Of a DNA stretch of 60,125 nt, positions 23,239 through 34,640 are shown piece by piece; position 1 is the first letter of the stretch, and each line of letters begins with the position of its first letter. The position numbers and the translations under genes are program-made. This DNA is from a virus, in the IMG/VR virus record IMGVR_UViG_3300044626_000224, positions 1 to 60,125 of that record. One strand, 5' to 3'. Under the pieces are notes generated by a model, which was not told the origin of the DNA, made no database searches, and saw only the letters and a list, made by a program, of their open reading frames with translations.

Positions 23239-23280
23239 AAGCCCACCTTGGATTTCTCCTCGGTGGGCTTCTTGCTTTTT
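23239..23280. terminator. Bidirectional terminator between convergent operons
   Basis: The stem AAGCCCACC / GGTGGGCTT (239-247 with 262-270) has a T-run on the plus side and an A-run (T-run on the minus side) on the other. It separates the rightward early operon from the leftward helicase operon. Confidence 0.85.
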
Positions 23281-24913
23281 AGGCAGTCACTTCTTTCGGT
23301 GCTACTGATATCGTTCCATCTACCTCACCATCCATGAGGGTATCCATGCGCTTGAGTTTAGCGTCAAGCGAACTGCATACTGACTCTTCGATGTCTACAC
23401 CAGCGGCGTAGATGAGATACTGAATCGACTTGGACTTACCACCAGCGCGATGGACTCGACCAAGAACCTGCTTGAGATCAAAGACCGAGTAGGTTGGCAT
23501 GATGAGAGCAACACGGGAGTATTTGCCGTTGAGATCGTGAAGGTTCAGACCCTCTCGACAGGCTTGGATAATGCCGATTATAACTCTCGACTTGTCATTC
23601 TGGAATGAGTCGATGTTGCCTCTTCGGACAATATCACTCTGACCTCCGCGAATGGAGCAGGTAGTCTTGAGTTCTTCTTCCATAAACTTGAGAGTCTCGG
23701 TGAAGTTGACCGCAATGAAGACACTATTACCTTCTTCGATCAAATCCTTTACCATTGCACAGACTGCTGGTGCTTTGAAGAGTTCGATCTTCTGACGGGC
23801 ACGGGTCATCTCAGCGAGGACTGCACCCATCGAGGATGCGACATTCTCCTGCATTTTGATCTGCTCTACCCTCATAAGAAGGTCATCGTATTCTTTGGCA
23901 ATTTCACGGGCAGTATCCATGTCAAATGCTCTGGCTTGGATGAGTGTCTCTGGGAAGGCACTGCCAACATCAGATGGTTTGAGTCGATTACCTCGATCTG
24001 GAAAGATACGGCCATGAAGGTTCTTGAGAACTTTATTGTTACCCTTGAACTGCATACCGAACTGAGTGTTGTAGCATCCGTTGGCGTTGAGGAATCGGAA
24101 GAAGTCCCTACCACCTTGATGAAGACCAAGGAACTGCCCGATTGCCCACATCTTTGTAGGATCATCAGCTATCGTAGCCGATAATGCTATGGTGGGGATG
24201 TTCTGGACTACAGCATCGCGGAGCAGGAAGGCATTCTGTGTGTTACCTTGAGCCTTGGCGCGGTGAACCTCATCGAAGATAAGATCGGTATCTGACGGCA
24301 GCATGAATTGGAATTCCTTCTTCTTATCATCTGTCCACCTACCAATCTTACTCTTGCCGGTCTTGACCCACTCCCACCCACAGACCTCGTAGGTTTCAAC
24401 GCCAAGGTATTTGGCAAGCCTATGCCAGTCGGTGGTGATGGGTTTAGGGCAGATCACAGCAACGCGCCTGCCACGCTCACGGGCCACAGCAAGGGCGATA
24501 GCAGTCTTACCCATGCCAGTGCCATGCCCAAGCAATGCACGATTGTATTTAGACATGGAACGAAGTGCCAACTGAACTGAAGTAAGTTGATACTCAAATA
24601 ACTTTTCGGGATACAAGAGTGGAGGAAGGTCATACTTAACCTCCGGTTCTACCTTCTCTGGTGAGGAGGAAGGGATTGTCGGAAACGATAAATCGGCGCG
24701 TGACCACCAAGCAATCTCCCATTCATCTCTGAACTTGGAAAGCTGAAGACCTAAGTCTCCCATAGCTTGTTTGTAGTCATCTTTATCTTCTCGGTATAAA
24801 GCCCAGAACTCCGAGGTGACGCTCGCCTTCCGAAGAAGACGAGGGCCACGCTTGGTGGAAGTGGACATAGGTTGAGAGAACTCAAGAGTATCGAGTAATG
24901 CTTTTAGGTTCAT
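23279..24913 (-). CDS. Superfamily II DNA helicase (DEAD/SNF2-like)
   Basis: A 544-residue ATP-driven nucleic-acid translocase. Motif I is G-T-G-M-G-K-T at 131-137, motif II D-E-V-H at 214-217, motif III S-A-T at 245-247, and motif VI Q-V-L-G-R-V-H-R-A-G-G near 505. The Q-type motif F-E-Y-Q-L-T-S-V-Q lies just before motif I. This domain order matches the SNF2/UvsW-like helicases many phages use for fork restart or recombination. It is the last and largest gene of the leftward operon. Two dispersed palindromes (copies 12 and 13) lie in its coding sequence. Confidence 0.9.
   Translation of the reverse strand: MNLKALLDTLEFSQPMSTSTKRGPRLLRKASVTSEFWALYREDKDDYKQAMGDLGLQLSKFRDEWEIAWWSRADLSFPTIPSSSPEKVEPEVKYDLPPLLYPEKLFEYQLTSVQLALRSMSKYNRALLGHGTGMGKTAIALAVARERGRRVAVICPKPITTDWHRLAKYLGVETYEVCGWEWVKTGKSKIGRWTDDKKKEFQFMLPSDTDLIFDEVHRAKAQGNTQNAFLLRDAVVQNIPTIALSATIADDPTKMWAIGQFLGLHQGGRDFFRFLNANGCYNTQFGMQFKGNNKVLKNLHGRIFPDRGNRLKPSDVGSAFPETLIQARAFDMDTAREIAKEYDDLLMRVEQIKMQENVASSMGAVLAEMTRARQKIELFKAPAVCAMVKDLIEEGNSVFIAVNFTETLKFMEEELKTTCSIRGGQSDIVRRGNIDSFQNDKSRVIIGIIQACREGLNLHDLNGKYSRVALIMPTYSVFDLKQVLGRVHRAGGKSKSIQYLIYAAGVDIEESVCSSLDAKLKRMDTLMDGEVDGTISVAPKEVTA
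24169..24184. promoter_or_regulatory. Dispersed palindrome, copy 12 (in gene)
   Basis: CTATCGTAGCCGATAA inside the helicase gene, with a G at one centre position. Confidence 0.78.
24676..24691. promoter_or_regulatory. Dispersed palindrome, copy 13 (in gene)
   Basis: TTGTCGGAAACGATAA inside the helicase gene, one arm base off consensus. Confidence 0.75.
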
Positions 24914-24921
24914 TATGCTTT

Positions 24922-25086
24922 TTATTCTACTTTTCCAATAGCCTTTAGTGCATGAGCGAGAATATCTGCCCGTGTATCATTTGGACTAACTACCATCGCG
25001 GCGATGTCCTGCAATGCAGTCAATAGTAGTTTCTCACGGGCAGTCATGCCGCGCTTGCGTGTATGTTTTTTCCAGTTGGTATTCAT
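24922..25086 (-). CDS. Small basic protein upstream of helicase
   Basis: A 54-residue frame with a basic N-terminus (N-W-K-K-H-T-R-K-R-G) and a helical remainder (A-L-Q-D-I-A-A-M-V, then I-L-A-H-A-L-K-A-I-G). Its ATG overlaps the previous stop (ATGA), which supports translation. Function unknown. Confidence 0.6.
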   Translation of the reverse strand: MNTNWKKHTRKRGMTAREKLLLTALQDIAAMVVSPNDTRADILAHALKAIGKVE

Positions 25087-25223
25087 TTTGATTTTTTAGT
25101 AGGTTGAGGTTTTGGATAGACCGAAGAACGAAACTTCGGCACATTGTTATCGCAGTGGCGAATGATGCGGATGTATGCCTCCGGTGGAAGGCAGGTTGGT
25201 TGGTTTTTCTCTGTTGCACTCAT
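25083..25223 (-). CDS. Small protein of the helicase operon
   Basis: A 46-residue frame with ATGA overlaps at both ends. It contains L-P-P-E-A-Y-I-R-I-I-R-H-C and a Pro/Lys-rich C-terminus. A longer overlapping frame on the same strand (25034-25219) is rejected because it lacks the overlap chain. Function unknown. Confidence 0.6.
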   Translation of the reverse strand: MSATEKNQPTCLPPEAYIRIIRHCDNNVPKFRSSVYPKPQPTKKSK

Positions 25224-25423
25224 TGGTTATATTTGTTGCTGATGTGTTGGATGAGTTGATCAAGCACAGACTGCTTGTTACCTTTGAATCCAAAGTCTTT
25301 CTTAACTTTAGCATAGACTGATCCTTTGCTGTGCTTCATGCCAGCGACTTCTAACTTGAGTGCTGACTTTAGTCGAAGAAGAGCATAAAGCTCAAACTCT
25401 TGTGGTTCGATTATAGTATACAT
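25220..25423 (-). CDS. Small protein following intergenic element R1
   Basis: A 67-residue protein starting MYTIIEPQEF. A longer reading upstream would run through the structured element R1 and is unlikely. The sequence is helical and basic (L-R-L-K-S-A-L-K-L-E-V, then V-K-K-D-F-G-F-K-G-N-K). Function unknown. Confidence 0.65.
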   Translation of the reverse strand: MYTIIEPQEFELYALLRLKSALKLEVAGMKHSKGSVYAKVKKDFGFKGNKQSVLDQLIQHISNKYNQ

Positions 25424-25529
25424 AGGTTTCTGTTTGTATAGGTTATGTGTTCTCATTGGGTTTTTCCAGTAGCACCATGCTACCAGACTGCTCCCCACTA
25501 TCGTGAACGATAATGAGGAGAGTGTCTGG
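25424..25529 (-). ncRNA. Structured intergenic element R1
   Basis: Read on the minus strand, it starts right after the upstream stop codon. Stem 1 pairs CCAGAC / GTCTGG and CTCC / GGAG around palindrome copy 14. Stem 2 is the hairpin GTAGC-ATGGT-GCTAC. Three sister elements (R2-R4) have the same layout but different paired bases, so the stems covary. It ends in an A-rich leader before the ATG. Confidence 0.65.
25498..25513. promoter_or_regulatory. Dispersed palindrome, copy 14 (in R1)
   Basis: CTATCGTGAACGATAA at the apex of the first stem of element R1. Confidence 0.82.
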
Positions 25530-25748
25530 TTACTTCCAAATCGGGCCGAGGGACTCCAAGTATCTATACATTGGAGTGAACATAGGGATAAGACGCGACT
25601 GACCATCGCGGCGAATCCACTCGCACCCATGCATTTTACCATTGCTCCAATACCAAGCGGAACATCTACCAGTAAAATTGGGAGATGTGATCTTGTGAAG
25701 AGCAAAGCCTTGCTTGCCTTCGTTGAATAATACTTTTTGTATGTTCAT
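25530..25748 (-). CDS. Small protein of the leftward operon
   Basis: A 72-residue protein starting at the ATG that overlaps the upstream stop (ATGA). It has aromatic-rich segments (C-S-A-W-Y-W-S-N-G-K-M-H-G-C-E-W-I-R-R-D-G) and ends P-M-Y-R-Y-L-E-S-L-G-P. These look like a compact beta protein. Function unknown. Confidence 0.65.
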   Translation of the reverse strand: MNIQKVLFNEGKQGFALHKITSPNFTGRCSAWYWSNGKMHGCEWIRRDGQSRLIPMFTPMYRYLESLGPIWK

Positions 25749-26164
25749 GGGCAGGCGTGGTTGTAGCAATCTTCTGGTGAGTTGAATGGGCCTTGAGACA
25801 TAGCCATGTCATCATAGTAATACCAACCCGGATGTTCGATGCCTGTCACTTGGAAAGGATCAACATTCTTGATGGCATCTTTGATGTTGTCGATGAACTC
25901 TTGAGCTTCTGGGAGCCAGCAATTATCATCATACTCAATCCAATTACCATCGCGGATCATGTGATCTTGATAGTTATTAACCTCCTCGCGGAAGGCAGTA
26001 TAGTCATATTCTTTGAGGACATCGCCAGCTGACATATGAGTGAATGGGCCGCCTACCTTGTAGAAGTCATATCTTTCATTGAGCATCTCGATAGTAGCTT
26101 CTTCGACATCTATGTATTCATGTTCATCATAGACTCTTTCTTCTAAGTATTGTTCTCTTGTCAT
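25745..26164 (-). CDS. Acidic protein of the leftward operon
   Basis: A 139-residue, strongly acidic protein rich in Tyr and Asp/Glu (Y-D-E-H-E-Y-I-D-V-E-E-A-T, then W-I-E-Y-D-D-N-C-W-L-P). Such acidic, aromatic small phage proteins are sometimes DNA mimics or inhibitors of host enzymes. No family was recognised, so that role is only a thought. It follows element R2. Confidence 0.65.
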   Translation of the reverse strand: MTREQYLEERVYDEHEYIDVEEATIEMLNERYDFYKVGGPFTHMSAGDVLKEYDYTAFREEVNNYQDHMIRDGNWIEYDDNCWLPEAQEFIDNIKDAIKNVDPFQVTGIEHPGWYYYDDMAMSQGPFNSPEDCYNHACP

Positions 26165-26258
26165 GTTATTGTATTTGGTTATTGTTTCGTGTTTTTCTAC
26201 TTACACCATGTAAGCAGACTGCTGGCATTATCGTTTCCGATAACACCAGAGTGTCTGA
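26165..26258 (-). ncRNA. Structured intergenic element R2
   Basis: On the minus strand: stem 1 CAGAC / GTCTG with inner CTGG / CCAG around palindrome copy 15, then stem 2 CTTAC-ATGGT-GTAAG, then an AAAACACGAAAC leader to the ATG. The layout matches R1, R3 and R4 with compensating base changes. It starts right after the TAG of the upstream gene. Confidence 0.68.
26228..26243. promoter_or_regulatory. Dispersed palindrome, copy 15 (in R2)
   Basis: TTATCGTTTCCGATAA, full consensus; on the minus strand it would form a hairpin with a GAAA loop. Confidence 0.88.
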
Positions 26259-26423
26259 CTACGCCCAATACTTGCCGTCACATACGCGAATGACTTGTTT
26301 GTCTTTCTTTGTTATGATGGTGACAGGTTGTTTCTTGGGAGTGGTGGCGCGGACAACGCCGATTTGTTTGATGGGGATAGCATCGAATAGCTTTCGAGCC
26401 TTTACCTTAGTTATTTCGAGCAT
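26259..26423 (-). CDS. Small basic protein
   Basis: A 54-residue protein, M-L-E-I-T-K-V-K-A-R-K to K-Y-W-A, Lys-rich with alternating hydrophobic residues. It starts inside the end of the micro-membrane gene and stops right before R2. Function unknown. Confidence 0.6.
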   Translation of the reverse strand: MLEITKVKARKLFDAIPIKQIGVVRATTPKKQPVTIITKKDKQVIRVCDGKYWA

Positions 26424-26488
26424 AGGATGAGAGTAGCTACTACTACTTGGAAGAGCATGATGAGTATGAGAAGGTTTCTTACACTCAT
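26411..26488 (-). CDS. Micro-membrane protein (25 aa)
   Basis: A 25-residue frame with ATGA overlap to the upstream gene. Residues 5-23 form one hydrophobic helix (L-L-I-L-I-M-L-F-Q-V-V-V-A). Three similar single-helix peptides occur at 29072, 30949 and 36910. It is probably a small inner-membrane peptide. Confidence 0.5.
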   Translation of the reverse strand: MSVRNLLILIMLFQVVVATLILCSK

Positions 26489-27162
26489 GCTAAAGCCTCC
26501 ACAGCTTTACGCACTTGGTATCCATGAGGATTGATCCAGACAGATGGGAGAGATGAGCGGCGATAGTTGCCGTCACACAATCCACACTCTGAACAAGACA
26601 ATCCCTTGGCATCTGCGAGACATTCGATATCGTTAACGATAGGCTCGTTACTGACAGTGAATGTCCGAAGACCAAGGTTCTTAGCATACTCCACATTGCT
26701 GGAATTGGTAGATGCCATGAAGTATCTACCATATGATTTTGCAAGTGGCGCAGGCATAGAATGCCAATCATGGAAGTATCCTGTAATCCGCTTGGCGAGC
26801 TTGGCAATGTCATATACCATTTCCAAAGGAATGTGGGATGGATTACCATATGCGCCAAAGCGGACATAGGGGACAGAGAAGAAGTCATACCACTCGCGTG
26901 TCCCCATCTGAAGGTATTCATAGGAGCCGCGCTGATATGCTCGCCAGATAGCACCGAGAGGATTGTCAGAGACATAACAACCTTGCTTGGAAGCAAACTC
27001 GCATCCATTGCATTGGTTGTCTGCATCTGGGCCTTTCCTAGATTCGGTAGGATGCATACGAGCATCCATAATCCATATCTGGACAGACTTGCCTGTCTTT
27101 CTGTTGCTACTATTCCTTGTGGCGATTACCACAATATCGTTGGTTTCATGTATAATATACAT
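26485..27162 (-). CDS. Cys-rich protein, possible metal/Fe-S binder
   Basis: A 225-residue protein starting MYIIHETNDI; a longer upstream frame would run through R3 and the next gene. Cys pairs are visible: C-N-G-C-E-F (about 51-54) with a nearby G-C-Y-V, and near the C-terminus C-S-E-C-G-L-C-D-G. Middle blocks include V-R-F-G-A-Y-G-N-P-S-H-I-P and Y-F-H-D-W-H-S-M-P. Similar Cys-rich proteins occur in diverse phages without known function. An Fe-S or zinc role is inferred. Palindrome copy 16 lies within the gene. Confidence 0.65.
   Translation of the reverse strand: MYIIHETNDIVVIATRNSSNRKTGKSVQIWIMDARMHPTESRKGPDADNQCNGCEFASKQGCYVSDNPLGAIWRAYQRGSYEYLQMGTREWYDFFSVPYVRFGAYGNPSHIPLEMVYDIAKLAKRITGYFHDWHSMPAPLAKSYGRYFMASTNSSNVEYAKNLGLRTFTVSNEPIVNDIECLADAKGLSCSECGLCDGNYRRSSLPSVWINPHGYQVRKAVEALA
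26627..26642. promoter_or_regulatory. Dispersed palindrome, copy 16 (in gene)
   Basis: ATATCGTTAACGATAG inside the Cys-rich gene; both outer bases vary, core intact. Confidence 0.78.
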
Positions 27163-27236
27163 TTGGTTTCGTGTTTTCCGACATGGTTGTATGTCAGACT
27201 GCCGCTCCCCGTTATCGTAAACGAGAAGCGGAGTGT
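27163..27236 (-). ncRNA. Structured intergenic element R3
   Basis: On the minus strand: stem 1 AGAC / GTCT and CCGCT / AGCGG around palindrome copy 17, then stem 2 GACAT-ACAACC-ATGTC, then GGAAAACACGAAACCAA to the ATG. The stem bases differ from R1 and R2 but pairing is kept. The outer pair overlaps the upstream stop codon. Confidence 0.68.
27212..27227. promoter_or_regulatory. Dispersed palindrome, copy 17 (in R3)
   Basis: TTATCGTAAACGAGAA, one arm mismatch, at the apex of R3. Confidence 0.7.
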
Positions 27237-27398
27237 CTAACTGCAAGCGTAAAAAGGGTGATATTCGCTTGCGATTGGGCGAGTCTTTAGGAAAGACGCT
27301 TTGAGTTTGCGTAAAACTCGCATTGCTTTTTCTTCCTTTTCTGGAGTATATTCCCAAATCTTTGATCGAATTCGACGGAGTTGTTTTTCGTAGTTCAT
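27237..27398 (-). CDS. Small basic protein between R4 and R3
   Basis: A 53-residue frame, M-N-Y-E-K-Q-L-R-R-I-R-S to F-Y-A-C-S, very basic and helical. It lies exactly between R4 and R3 with an A-rich leader ahead. It is shorter than usual gene-finder limits. Function unknown. Confidence 0.62.
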   Translation of the reverse strand: MNYEKQLRRIRSKIWEYTPEKEEKAMRVLRKLKASFLKTRPIASEYHPFYACS

Positions 27399-27486
27399 AA
27401 TTCTTTATTTGTTTCGTGTTTTCGCTGATTGGTTGTAATCAGCCTGCTGCCCTAATATCGTAAACGATACCAGAGCAGAGTGGCTA
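27399..27486 (-). ncRNA. Structured intergenic element R4
   Basis: On the minus strand: stem 1 AGCC / GGCT with inner TGC / GCA around palindrome copy 18, then stem 2 CTGATT-ACAACC-AATCAG, then CGAAAACACGAAACAAAT to the ATG. The 5' side overlaps the upstream stop codon TAG. Confidence 0.65.
27455..27470. promoter_or_regulatory. Dispersed palindrome, copy 18 (in R4)
   Basis: ATATCGTAAACGATAC, intact core, at the apex of R4. Confidence 0.8.
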
Positions 27487-27627
27487 ACTACGCAGGTAGC
27501 GCAGGGCGTCGATGTAGGAACGAACCCGCTTTCTGAAGTAAGGTAGATGGCGCAACCGCCAGCATTCCTTGATGGATTTTAAGGTAGCAACATGGAGTGT
27601 TACCTTGATGTCGTATGGAATAGTCAT
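27484..27627 (-). CDS. Small basic protein upstream of R4
   Basis: A 47-residue frame, M-T-I-P-Y-D-I-K-V-T to A-L-R-Y-L-R-S, overlapping the previous gene by ATGA. It is Arg/Tyr-rich, with W-R-L-R-H-L-P-Y-F-R-K-R. Function unknown. Confidence 0.6.
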   Translation of the reverse strand: MTIPYDIKVTLHVATLKSIKECWRLRHLPYFRKRVRSYIDALRYLRS

Positions 27628-27863
27628 TCGATGATAAGAAGCCCCATTGTTAAGAGTTCCTCCATGCCATACACCTTGCGTTCACCGCAGCACTCACAAA
27701 GATACTTGCGAGCGTCTGGCTCAACACCATCTACTTCCTCACCGCAGGTTAAGCACCATCCGGGAGAGTCCATGCCGAACATGATTTGCTCCATCTCTTC
27801 GGTGGAAACGACAGGAACGATATACTCGTTACCTTTATCGGATACGATAGTCTTCGTAGTCAT
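27624..27863 (-). CDS. Small zinc-ribbon protein
   Basis: A 79-residue protein with two Cys pairs: C-L-T-C-G-E-E and C-E-C-C-G-E-R-K, typical of a four-Cys zinc ribbon. Small zinc ribbons of this type in phages often modulate transcription or bind host proteins. It shares one base with the previous stop (TAATG). Palindrome copy 19 lies in its 5' part. Confidence 0.68.
   Translation of the reverse strand: MTTKTIVSDKGNEYIVPVVSTEEMEQIMFGMDSPGWCLTCGEEVDGVEPDARKYLCECCGERKVYGMEELLTMGLLIIE
27835..27850. promoter_or_regulatory. Dispersed palindrome, copy 19 (in gene)
   Basis: TTATCGGATACGATAG in the first codons of the zinc-ribbon gene. Confidence 0.83.
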
Positions 27864-28099
27864 TAGAAGCCCTCCGGTTTGAATCCTTCCTCACCGCGAA
27901 GAAAGCCCTTGGAGAACGCTGTAATGCAAGCGTCAAGGACAGCGGCGGGAACATGACCATAGGTCATAACATGGGAACCATTGTGCATAACGGAATAGCC
28001 CTTGCCATTTCCAGATGCTTGGCATGAGAGTTCAAAATGAACTCCAGTGACATTAAACAGGTAATCCAACCTGTCGCGTAATAATTTTCGTGTTATCAT
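27863..28099 (-). CDS. First gene of the leftward operon
   Basis: A 78-residue protein starting MITRKLLRDR. An upstream in-frame extension would cross the conserved ACACGAAACAAATG leader and is rejected. The pattern S-V-M-H-N-G-S-H-V-M-T-Y-G-H and A-V-L-D-A-C-I-T-A-F suggests a small alpha/beta protein. It follows promoter P2 by a leader of about 190 bases. Function unknown. Confidence 0.65.
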   Translation of the reverse strand: MITRKLLRDRLDYLFNVTGVHFELSCQASGNGKGYSVMHNGSHVMTYGHVPAAVLDACITAFSKGFLRGEEGFKPEGF

Positions 28100-28293
28100 T
28101 TGTTTCGTGTGTTGTGACTCTGCGTTTGCGTTATGCTTTACGGGATTGTCACCGCTTTGAATTATCGGATACGATAACCAAATCCGCATTAACCTCGCCG
28201 TCCATAACAGACGACAAGGCCACGAAAAACCGAAACTGAAAACCTGAAATTGAAATGATCGATTGTCGTGGGAAAACTACTCTTCCCCGACTT
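28100..28293 (-). promoter_or_regulatory. Structured leader of the leftward operon (R5)
   Basis: The 5' leader between promoter P2 and the first ATG. It has a hairpin from the outer pair ACGACAA / TTGTCGT, palindrome copy 20, a GTGAC / GTCAC stem, and the end ACACACGAAACAAATG shared with R2-R4. No open frame is convincing. Stretch 28100-28404 as a whole is the divergent control region between the leftward operon and the terminase small-subunit gene. Confidence 0.55.
28162..28177. promoter_or_regulatory. Dispersed palindrome, copy 20
   Basis: TTATCGGATACGATAA, full consensus, in the leader of the leftward operon. Confidence 0.88.
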
Positions 28294-28298
28294 TCAAT

Positions 28299-28327
28299 AG
28301 TCTACCACAAGTCACCCCTTTTGTCAA
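28299..28327 (-). promoter_or_regulatory. Promoter P2 of the leftward helicase operon
   Basis: On the minus strand TTGACA (28327-28322), a 17-base spacer, TAGACT (28304-28299). The perfect -35 and exact spacing make this one of the strongest promoter calls in the window. Confidence 0.75.
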
Positions 28328-32521: not shown

Positions 32522-33516
32522 TTATAAATTAACTTCCATTTATCTAATGTTTCACTCTTGATCATTGTTGAATACTTTGTAAAATCGTGTTTATTACAAT
32601 TTTTTAGTGCTTTAATTATGTTTGGTATTTCTTCAATTGAATCAAAATAATACCTACACTTTTCAAGTTTTGGATTATACCATTCAGACAATTTAGCGAG
32701 GTCTTCTGTAAGTATTTCTGCCCCTCCATATCCCGTTATATTGAACAAATAATTTCCTTGTTTGCTTAACTTCATCAATAACTCTACTGATGGAAGTAAT
32801 ACTGGAATGTTGTTGTGTATTGCTTCAAATGAAAACCATTTGCAAAATGTATCTGGTAAGGTGACGAACGCTGAATACTTATTCAACTGACTTGGAGAGT
32901 AAAAAGTTCCATTGCAAACAGACAGATCATTTGATCTTAAATAATCTGCCATTTTAAAAAACTGATTATCGTTGTGATAAAATGGAACAAATACATCAGC
33001 ATCAAGTAATTCTTTTGACTCTCCATACATCTCATTAAATACATTTGCCCTTGGTATGTTAAAATCTAAATCATGTTTGCCGAGTGGATTAATTACGGGA
33101 TTGAACATGATATTAGAGCCATGCTGCAAACACCATAACTTCTCAAATAAAGTTGAAGCGACAATTGTTATTTTAGGATTATTCGTAGCATTACGGAATA
33201 ATTCGTAATACTCAATATCTCCAGACATTCCATAATCAAAACGATTACATATCCATATGATTAATTTTGGTTTTAACTTTTCTATGTTTTGTAGAAATGG
33301 TCTGGATAATGGTGCTGTATCAGAAATAAGAATATAATCATACGAGTTAAATAGTTCTTCATTCTTATTCCAAAAATCATCAGCTATTTCTTTTGTAATC
33401 CTAAATACATTGTCAGTGAATTTGTGATTATCAACATGGAGTCCAAGTTTATTGAGTATATATTGCTGATCTCTAAAACATCCAATATGATGAGAGATGT
33501 GTAATACTTTCTTCAT
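32518..33516 (-). CDS. Glycosyltransferase-like protein 2
   Basis: A 332-residue protein starting M-K-K-V-L-H-I-S-H-H-I-G-C-F. The first strand and the C-terminal half (C-K-W-F-S-F-E-A-I-H-N-N-I-P-V-L-L-P) fit a GT-B fold, where a conserved Glu region binds the nucleotide sugar. It is AT-rich like its neighbour. The start was chosen by ATGA overlap with the next gene upstream; a longer frame has no support. Confidence 0.55.
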   Translation of the reverse strand: MKKVLHISHHIGCFRDQQYILNKLGLHVDNHKFTDNVFRITKEIADDFWNKNEELFNSYDYILISDTAPLSRPFLQNIEKLKPKLIIWICNRFDYGMSGDIEYYELFRNATNNPKITIVASTLFEKLWCLQHGSNIMFNPVINPLGKHDLDFNIPRANVFNEMYGESKELLDADVFVPFYHNDNQFFKMADYLRSNDLSVCNGTFYSPSQLNKYSAFVTLPDTFCKWFSFEAIHNNIPVLLPSVELLMKLSKQGNYLFNITGYGGAEILTEDLAKLSEWYNPKLEKCRYYFDSIEEIPNIIKALKNCNKHDFTKYSTMIKSETLDKWKLIYK

Positions 33517-34640
33517 GGATAGTATCTGTTCATTGCTTCGATGTCGTTTCCTTTGGCATACCACCCGTCTCCGGTATATACATCCATGACATCTGCGAAG
33601 TATTTCTCATACATTGGTGCTACCCGCTCCAAGGTGAAGTTTTTTCCAAATCTGTGGCAGTCGTATGGGCAGATTTGGTCGATGTTCTTAATCGCATCTA
33701 TGTAGTCACCCATAGTCCGGCAGCGGAATCCTGTATAACCATGTAGGTTATTCTCGGTGAACGATCCCCAGTCGGTAGTAATTGTCGGAGTGCCAGAGAG
33801 TAGGTTTTCTATTTGGACTCCACCGAATGGTTCTACATACTGACTTGGAAGGAAGGATGCTTTAGCCCTCGACATGAGCTTCTTTCTGGTAGGAACATCG
33901 GCGTATCCTACATAGGTAACATGGTCTGGTAGTTTGTAACCTTCCTCTTTTTGGCCTGCGATTACCAGTTTAACCCCTGCTCGTTTAGTAGCTTCAATGG
34001 CAATATCTACACCTTTTCCGCTATATACCCTACCCAGATAGAGAAAGTAATCTTCTTTCTGGTCACAGAAGTCGAAGTCTTCTTTATCAAAGTAGTTTGG
34101 GATTACTACGGCATAGTTATCTTGCTGGCAATTTCCTACTGCCTGCATTCCGCAGAACGCATGGTAGATTGCGTAGGATTCAAATACTTTCCACCTCGCC
34201 CAGTGTCCACCTGCATATCCAATCCCCGGCTCGACTGTGATTAAGTCTGGATGAGCGTCACAAATAGGACGAACGCCACTTCCCCAGAATGGGAGAATGA
34301 AGTCATTCTTCTGCTTACGCTGCCCGATTGCCTTAATCGCGTTTCGATAGAATGTTTGGTAGGCATGGTCATTGGTATCAAACTTGAAGAATGTCTTCCT
34401 CCAGTCATGTGATCCGTAGCTTTTGTTGAAGTCATCATTGGTTAGGACAGGGACGTGTTCTGTGCAGATTAAGTCTGAATCTTCGTGTCCGTAGTGGATT
34501 ACTTCATGGCCGCGCTGGGTCATCATCTTCCCGAACTTCACTACCTTTTGGGTATAAGCGCAGGCGTTGAACTCTTTGGAACTTACTGTGTGAGGCAAGC
34601 CAAGGATATGGAATCTAAATTTATCGTTAACGATACTCAT
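33513..34640 (-). CDS. GT4-family glycosyltransferase
   Basis: A 375-residue GT-B glycosyltransferase. The donor-binding half is clear: Y-L-G-R-V-Y-S-G-K-G-V-D-I-A-I-E-A (201-217), then V-K-L-V-I-A-G, then the E-P-F-G-G-V-Q-I-E-N motif (270-279). The N-terminal half has H-I-L-G-L-P and P-G-I-G-Y-A-G-G. It is the best-defined of three clustered glycosyltransferases. The first codons hold palindrome copy 26 (S-I-V-N-D). Target unknown. Confidence 0.8.
   Translation of the reverse strand: MSIVNDKFRFHILGLPHTVSSKEFNACAYTQKVVKFGKMMTQRGHEVIHYGHEDSDLICTEHVPVLTNDDFNKSYGSHDWRKTFFKFDTNDHAYQTFYRNAIKAIGQRKQKNDFILPFWGSGVRPICDAHPDLITVEPGIGYAGGHWARWKVFESYAIYHAFCGMQAVGNCQQDNYAVVIPNYFDKEDFDFCDQKEDYFLYLGRVYSGKGVDIAIEATKRAGVKLVIAGQKEEGYKLPDHVTYVGYADVPTRKKLMSRAKASFLPSQYVEPFGGVQIENLLSGTPTITTDWGSFTENNLHGYTGFRCRTMGDYIDAIKNIDQICPYDCHRFGKNFTLERVAPMYEKYFADVMDVYTGDGWYAKGNDIEAMNRYYP
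34621..34636. promoter_or_regulatory. Dispersed palindrome, copy 26 (start of gene)
   Basis: TTATCGTTAACGATAC covers codons 2-7 of the GT4 gene. Confidence 0.85.

Follow-up and report, generated by a model that had tools for sequence, protein, structure and literature searches.

The leftward operon and its junction elements

The window analysed here, the whole stretch of 60,125 nucleotides of an IMG/VR virus record, carries a leftward operon whose blocks of genes are divided by four two-hairpin elements, R4, R3, R2 and R1 in that order (Table 1). Twelve junctions were scored, from an ORF of 78 aa to the helicase gene, with one nested alternative start set aside. The four junctions with an element are all non-overlapping gaps of 73-94 nt, whereas at the eight without one the genes overlap (-1 to -13) or are separated by only a short gap (+8). 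Given that an element lies at every long gap and at no overlap or short gap, the elements divide blocks of overlapping genes. Some 840 nt separate the operon promoter from the first element, and the junctions with elements lie 0.8-2.9 kb from this promoter, which was not seen in the stretch searched of the remaining three of the 16 contigs.

Table 1. Positions of the operon, its elements and two further genes in the window
Feature	Position	Strand	Details
Operon	23279..28099	-	small ORFs; overlapping stop and start codons within blocks; helicase gene last
Element R1	25449..25532	-	covariance model 90.2 bits; fold z -4.6; stop codon TAA 25530-25532, stem 1, hairpin 2 GTAGC ATGGT GCTAC, short A-rich leader; start of following ORF possible at 25456
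Element R2	26179..26261	-	covariance model 80.6 bits; fold z -5.1; stop codon TAG 26259-26261, stem 1, hairpin 2 CTTAC ATGGT GTAAG, leader AAAAACACGAAAC; following gene starts at 26164
Element R3	27161..27243	-	covariance model 74.4 bits; fold z -5.9; stop codon TAG (27237-27239) within TTAG foot of stem 1, hairpin 2 GACAT ACAACC ATGTC, leader GAAAACACGAAAC; following gene from 27162
Element R4	27406..27490	-	covariance model 75.6 bits; fold z -6.3; stop codon TAG (27484-27486) within TTAG foot of stem 1, hairpin 2 CTGATT ACAACC AATCAG, leader GAAAACACGAAAC; following gene from 27398
Operon 5' leader RNA	28100..28292	-	alignment and consensus fold; 15 pairs changed on both sides
Operon promoter	28299..28327	-	TTGACA-17-TAGACT; conserved in 13 of 16 contigs
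225-aa protein gene	26485..27162	-	cysteine-bearing; PHROG 2554 (function unknown)
Glycosyltransferase gene	33513..34640	-	72% identical to a Synechococcus phage S-CAM7 protein

Each element consists, in order, of an outer helix, an internal loop of AC opposite A, a variable inner stem, GNCTG, hairpin 2, a leader and the ATG. In the internal loop the unpaired bases A and C are invariant, and the loops at the tip of stem 1 and of hairpin 2 vary freely among elements. Of the 47 elements for which an upstream ORF was assigned, 44 have its stop codon either right before YYAGNC or as the TAG within TTAG. The leader after the elements is A/C-rich, without a Shine-Dalgarno sequence and mostly of the AAAACACGAAAC type, which precedes most start codons downstream of an element, and it is predicted to be mostly unpaired (mean 0.85). 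A Shine-Dalgarno sequence is absent from most genes of the whole window, which instead have an A-rich stretch before the ATG; its absence as a special trait of the genes that follow elements was therefore rejected. Intrinsic terminators were ruled out, there being no U-tract downstream of the hairpins.

A sequence-only reading of the window had described four two-hairpin elements sharing one layout on the minus strand, and this held. Its account was also correct for the stems, for the internal loop (ACT/CA) and for the loops of hairpin 2, ATGGT or ACAACC. Two of its statements are refined: the upstream stop codon touches stem 1 or lies inside it, and the leader of R1, which had been called degenerate, is a short leader, because the next ORF can start at 25456. 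The overlap between helices (a possible switch), the fixed stop register, the exchange of cassettes and the separable nature of the palindrome had all been missed.

The operon's own 5' leader is a multi-branched structured RNA kept in 12 aligned phages, with covarying arms, one of which often bears the palindrome discussed below. Its closing helix, UUUCGUG/CACGAAA, is nearly invariant and pairs the CACGAAA just upstream of the first start codon, the same motif that serves as the leader after the R elements. This 5' leader had no match in Rfam.

Members of the family and conservation of their pairing

An exact-pattern scan of IMG/VR with the 3' half of the element yielded 14 contigs beyond the window, and one more was added by a second viral scan together with a search that used the 225-aa protein as query; whole contigs were analysed. 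Elements were counted with a covariance model built from 46 sequences and a structural parse, giving 69 elements (49 distinct), R1-R4 included, in 16 related IMG/VR phages at 2-6 per phage. Strong matches to the model are all on the sense strand of the same leftward operon, and the weak antisense matches are the same hairpins in reverse reading. The model found exactly four copies within the window and no fifth, and no match at 13 further loci of the second viral scan. A comparison of R1-R4 with Rfam gave nothing at the gathering threshold and, up to E = 10, only chance-level snoRNA matches outside the elements. Cellular genomes (257 billion bases) gave nine scattered matches, about the chance expectation, which were not individually inspected, and no described family of this kind was found in the literature searched, coverage of which was incomplete. 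It is very likely that R1-R4 are members of an undescribed family of cis-acting intercistronic RNA elements. The 225-aa protein is itself present in 16/16 of the R-bearing phages and has distant relatives in Mycobacterium, Klebsiella, Gordonia and Microcystis phages.

Pairing is retained across the family while sequence is not. In the 46-sequence alignment 94% of cells pair, compared with 80.5% when shuffled and 21-53% when slid by 1-3 columns, and changes on both sides of a pair occupy 144 cells compared with 33 in the shuffled control. In the inner helix of stem 1 pairing reaches 99.3% and 11 of the 13 pairs show changes on both sides; across 34 distinct inner stems the sequence varies and the pairing stays. 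Such a change can be seen within a single slot (CTGCTCTG/CAGGGCAG versus CTGTTCTG/CAGGACAG). Hairpin 2 of the R3 and R4 types was misaligned by MAFFT and was therefore parsed by structure; over 27 distinct sequences its outer six pairs are 98% paired, versus 82% with swapped arms. None of these shuffle, slide and arm-swap controls is corrected for relatedness. Nevertheless, this caveat is eased by the many standard pair types found at the same positions and by the two-sided change within a single slot. The RNA folds of R1-R4 are, in addition, more stable than 200 of 200 dinucleotide shuffles (z scores in Table 1). The elements' conserved RNA structure is near certain, and the earlier proposal that their covariation is evidence of function as RNA is supported and withstands the refuting condition that had been set for it: there are further copies in related IMG/VR phages, and pairing in these homologues is far above the shuffled and slid controls. 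The distinct inner stems contain 52 G.U pairs and zero A.C pairs, which indicates that selection acts on the sense (mRNA) RNA. A coding function across the element was ruled out, given that tip loops of 3, 4 and 5 nt shift the frame.

The palindrome TATCGNNNNCGATA is a separable motif. There are more than 30 copies in the window against about one expected, within genes and between them (for example at 138, 2433, 27456 and 59803), it is present in 46/46 phages examined, and its spacer has no strand preference, as expected of a double-stranded DNA site. Within elements the spacer differs from 4 nt in 17 of 51 cases, compared with 15 of 326 elsewhere. The tip of stem 1 can be a GNRA-type loop, and in some elements, where the tip is GCGA, GCAA, GAAA or UCGC, it is hairpin 2 that is formed by the palindrome; one element type, from two phages, has no palindrome. 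In the R3 type the palindrome is broken (TCTCG...CGATA) and a longer stem is kept through G.U pairs, so that the earlier placement of the palindrome at the tip of stem 1 held only in part. Thirty relatives sharing TerL or DnaB have palindromes and no element, in a search that recovered the window's four as a positive control. Given its move to hairpin 2 or absence, its relaxed spacer and these 30 element-less relatives, the palindrome was rejected as the essence of the element.

Competing folds, gene cassettes and a proposed role

The CUG that closes stem 1 is invariant and has two possible partners, both of which are conserved. In state A the CUG of GNCUG, the 3' foot of stem 1, pairs with the 5' foot; in state B it pairs instead with a [CU][AG]G triplet 3' of hairpin 2, and a further pairing, of the internal-loop ACU with AGU, is possible. 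Given that the CUG is common to both helices, the two states are mutually exclusive. The 43 distinct elements first collected, by a search that imposed no requirement on this triplet, all have [CU][AG]G at that place, which is exactly the set of triplets capable of pairing with CUG. The predicted energy gap between the states is 0.1 +/- 2.0 kcal/mol (54 sequences), a thermodynamic prediction made without a null model. With the 10 nt that directly follow the stop codon taken away, as might happen under a terminating ribosome, state B is predicted with a mean probability of 0.99 and the leader is predicted to stay mostly open. By this prediction, made without experiment, a ribosome standing at the stop would tip the RNA towards state B.

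The internal loop raises the possibility that the elements are binding sites for a phage or host protein that co-regulates the blocks, recognising either the AC/A loop or the two-state foot. The invariant, unpaired A and C and the several copies per operon are in keeping with this. However, the invariance is partly explained by the pairing of ACU with AGU in state B, the loops of the tip and of hairpin 2 vary freely, and there is no candidate protein; this explanation is unlikely.

The genes between elements are exchanged among phages. The slot between R4 and R3 holds unrelated ORFs of 53, 92, 172, 81 or 199 aa in different phages, and elsewhere the gene pair f23-f24 or nothing, sometimes with one hybrid element. 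The pair f23-f24 itself occupies different slots in phage G003 and in G007/G009. The types of stem 1, hairpin 2 and leader are recombined, with changeovers at several places (in the stem, hairpin 2 and the leader). This exchange indicates that the elements bound gene cassettes. It is also what an alternative explanation would draw upon, namely that the elements are DNA recombination sites, attC-like or another folded single-strand site, which serve chiefly to move cassettes. In its favour are the cassette-like arrays, the variable R4-R3 slot, the differing slots of f23-f24 and the hybrid elements. However, this is very unlikely: the G.U pairs without A.C pairs in the inner stems point to selection on the RNA sense, the hybrid changeovers are scattered, as ordinary homologous recombination would give, and no integron or other integrase was found among the window proteins scanned (20 with PHROGs and 10 with Pfam, not every ORF).

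Five inspected relatives that lack R elements have a different operon at this locus with other junction sequences. In relatives without R elements (L257-L271; G016, G017, G022, G029; more weakly G030), the operon at this locus has 7-8 sense-strand copies of CCTCCACA. Several of these directly follow stop codons and precede A/C-rich leaders, so that another junction motif occupies the position of the R elements. The window has no named phage relatives by DNA or TerL, and its DnaB has no close match to any named phage. The S-CAM7-like glycosyltransferase is possibly a clue to the host or a recent transfer, and the host is not settled.

The explanation that best fits these observations is that the elements are cis-acting RNA punctuation which insulates translation units, although the mechanism is inferred, there are no expression data and the case for it is evenly balanced. 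With an element in between, ribosomes reaching the end of a block would neither stray into the following block nor become coupled to it, and each block would have an open leader of its own for ribosomes to land on. Once a ribosome terminating on the stop codon covered the 5' foot of stem 1, the RNA would shift to state B, and either a barrier would remain folded or the change itself would signal termination. Blocks insulated in this manner could be exchanged as cassettes through recombination in shared element sequences. Punctuation is favoured because of the strict stop register, the restriction to non-overlapping junctions, the open leader free of a Shine-Dalgarno sequence and a structure predicted to survive the ribosome; moreover, according to a review, translational coupling correlates negatively with structure predicted immediately 3' of a stop codon (PMC12548453). 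Two points stand against it. First, a plain barrier needs no two competing folds, and it is possible that the switch serves another output. Second, phages without the element manage a comparable operon at this locus, the junctions of which have other sequences.

A further possibility is that the elements act in RNA processing or stability, with a nuclease (RNase III- or RNase E-like, of host or phage) cutting or protecting the hairpins and the operon mRNA being split into blocks with separate half-lives. The long paired stem at block boundaries, followed by a single-stranded A-rich stretch, is consistent with this. However, processing does not itself demand the exact stop-codon register, and there is no spacer to cut between the two hairpins; the explanation stays in contention but is rather unlikely.

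A bolder form of the punctuation reading, which is less likely than not, is that a repeated, bistable RNA senses the ribosome at the stop codon and forms a standard insulator boundary of plug-in cassettes. If true, the expression of each cassette would be independent of its neighbours, permitting plug-in gene exchange. The interest of the elements is that they form an undescribed RNA family in which covariation is unusually clean and the position is fixed exactly by stop codons and by the boundaries of exchangeable genes; their two competing folds make a direct prediction about terminating ribosomes. Should they prove to be insulators of translation units, they would be nature's equivalent of the hairpin insulators used in synthetic biology, and would offer a testable reason why some phage operons can acquire and shed small genes while neighbouring genes are left undisturbed.

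Comparison with known systems

The put RNA of phage HK022 lies near early promoters, at distances from just downstream up to about 270 nt, and works on RNA polymerase by suppressing pausing and termination (PMC9378689). When tested for its size of about 70 nt and its two adjacent stem-loops in early-type phage transcripts, the R elements proved to share these features, and a put-like transcription elongation element acting on RNA polymerase (anti-pausing or antitermination) would account for this outline. However, the R elements are not promoter-proximal and are repeated at later gene junctions, and their anchoring to stop codons is not required by transcription alone, so that a put-like role is unlikely. 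Membership in put was rejected, as the promoter-proximal position is not met, and the earlier statement that the resemblance is only in outline held.

The SAS/ESAS repeats of cluster K mycobacteriophages, the function of which is unknown, lie just upstream of the start codons of many small genes, and part of them are preceded by a 17-bp inverted repeat with a per-genome consensus (PMC3203893). The R leaders are likewise a repeated sequence a few bases before many start codons. Unlike SAS/ESAS, the stems of the R elements vary in sequence and yet pair, and the elements are tied to the upstream stop codon and have two hairpins with competing folds; membership was rejected given the absence of an inverted repeat with a conserved consensus. 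The REP, ERIC and NEMIS repeats are near-identical, dispersed, hairpin-forming sequences between operon genes, whereas the stems of R elements differ between copies with compensatory change and are confined to one operon and one orientation.

The attC sites of integrons conserve structure over sequence and lie at the stop codons of promoterless genes, in one orientation and in cassette-like arrays. All of these traits are common to the R elements, namely structure conserved above sequence, stop-codon position, single orientation and arrays. Nevertheless, the inverse core RYYYAAC (5') and core GTTRRRY (3') of attC are not met by the feet of the R elements (YYAGNC ... GNCTG); a GTTAGAC-like string is confined to the 5' end, where only some elements have it, the orientation of the core sites does not fit, and selection on the R elements acts on the sense RNA.

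Translation-responsive operon RNAs, that is, attenuators and coupling by RNA unfolding (PMC12548453), resemble the proposed behaviour of the R elements in that a ribosome on one helix arm selects the fold. The folds of the R elements differ from those of attenuators in showing neither a terminator nor a sequestered start site, the leader being predicted as mostly unpaired and no U-tract following the hairpins, and the R elements form a repeated family positioned at the boundaries of gene blocks.
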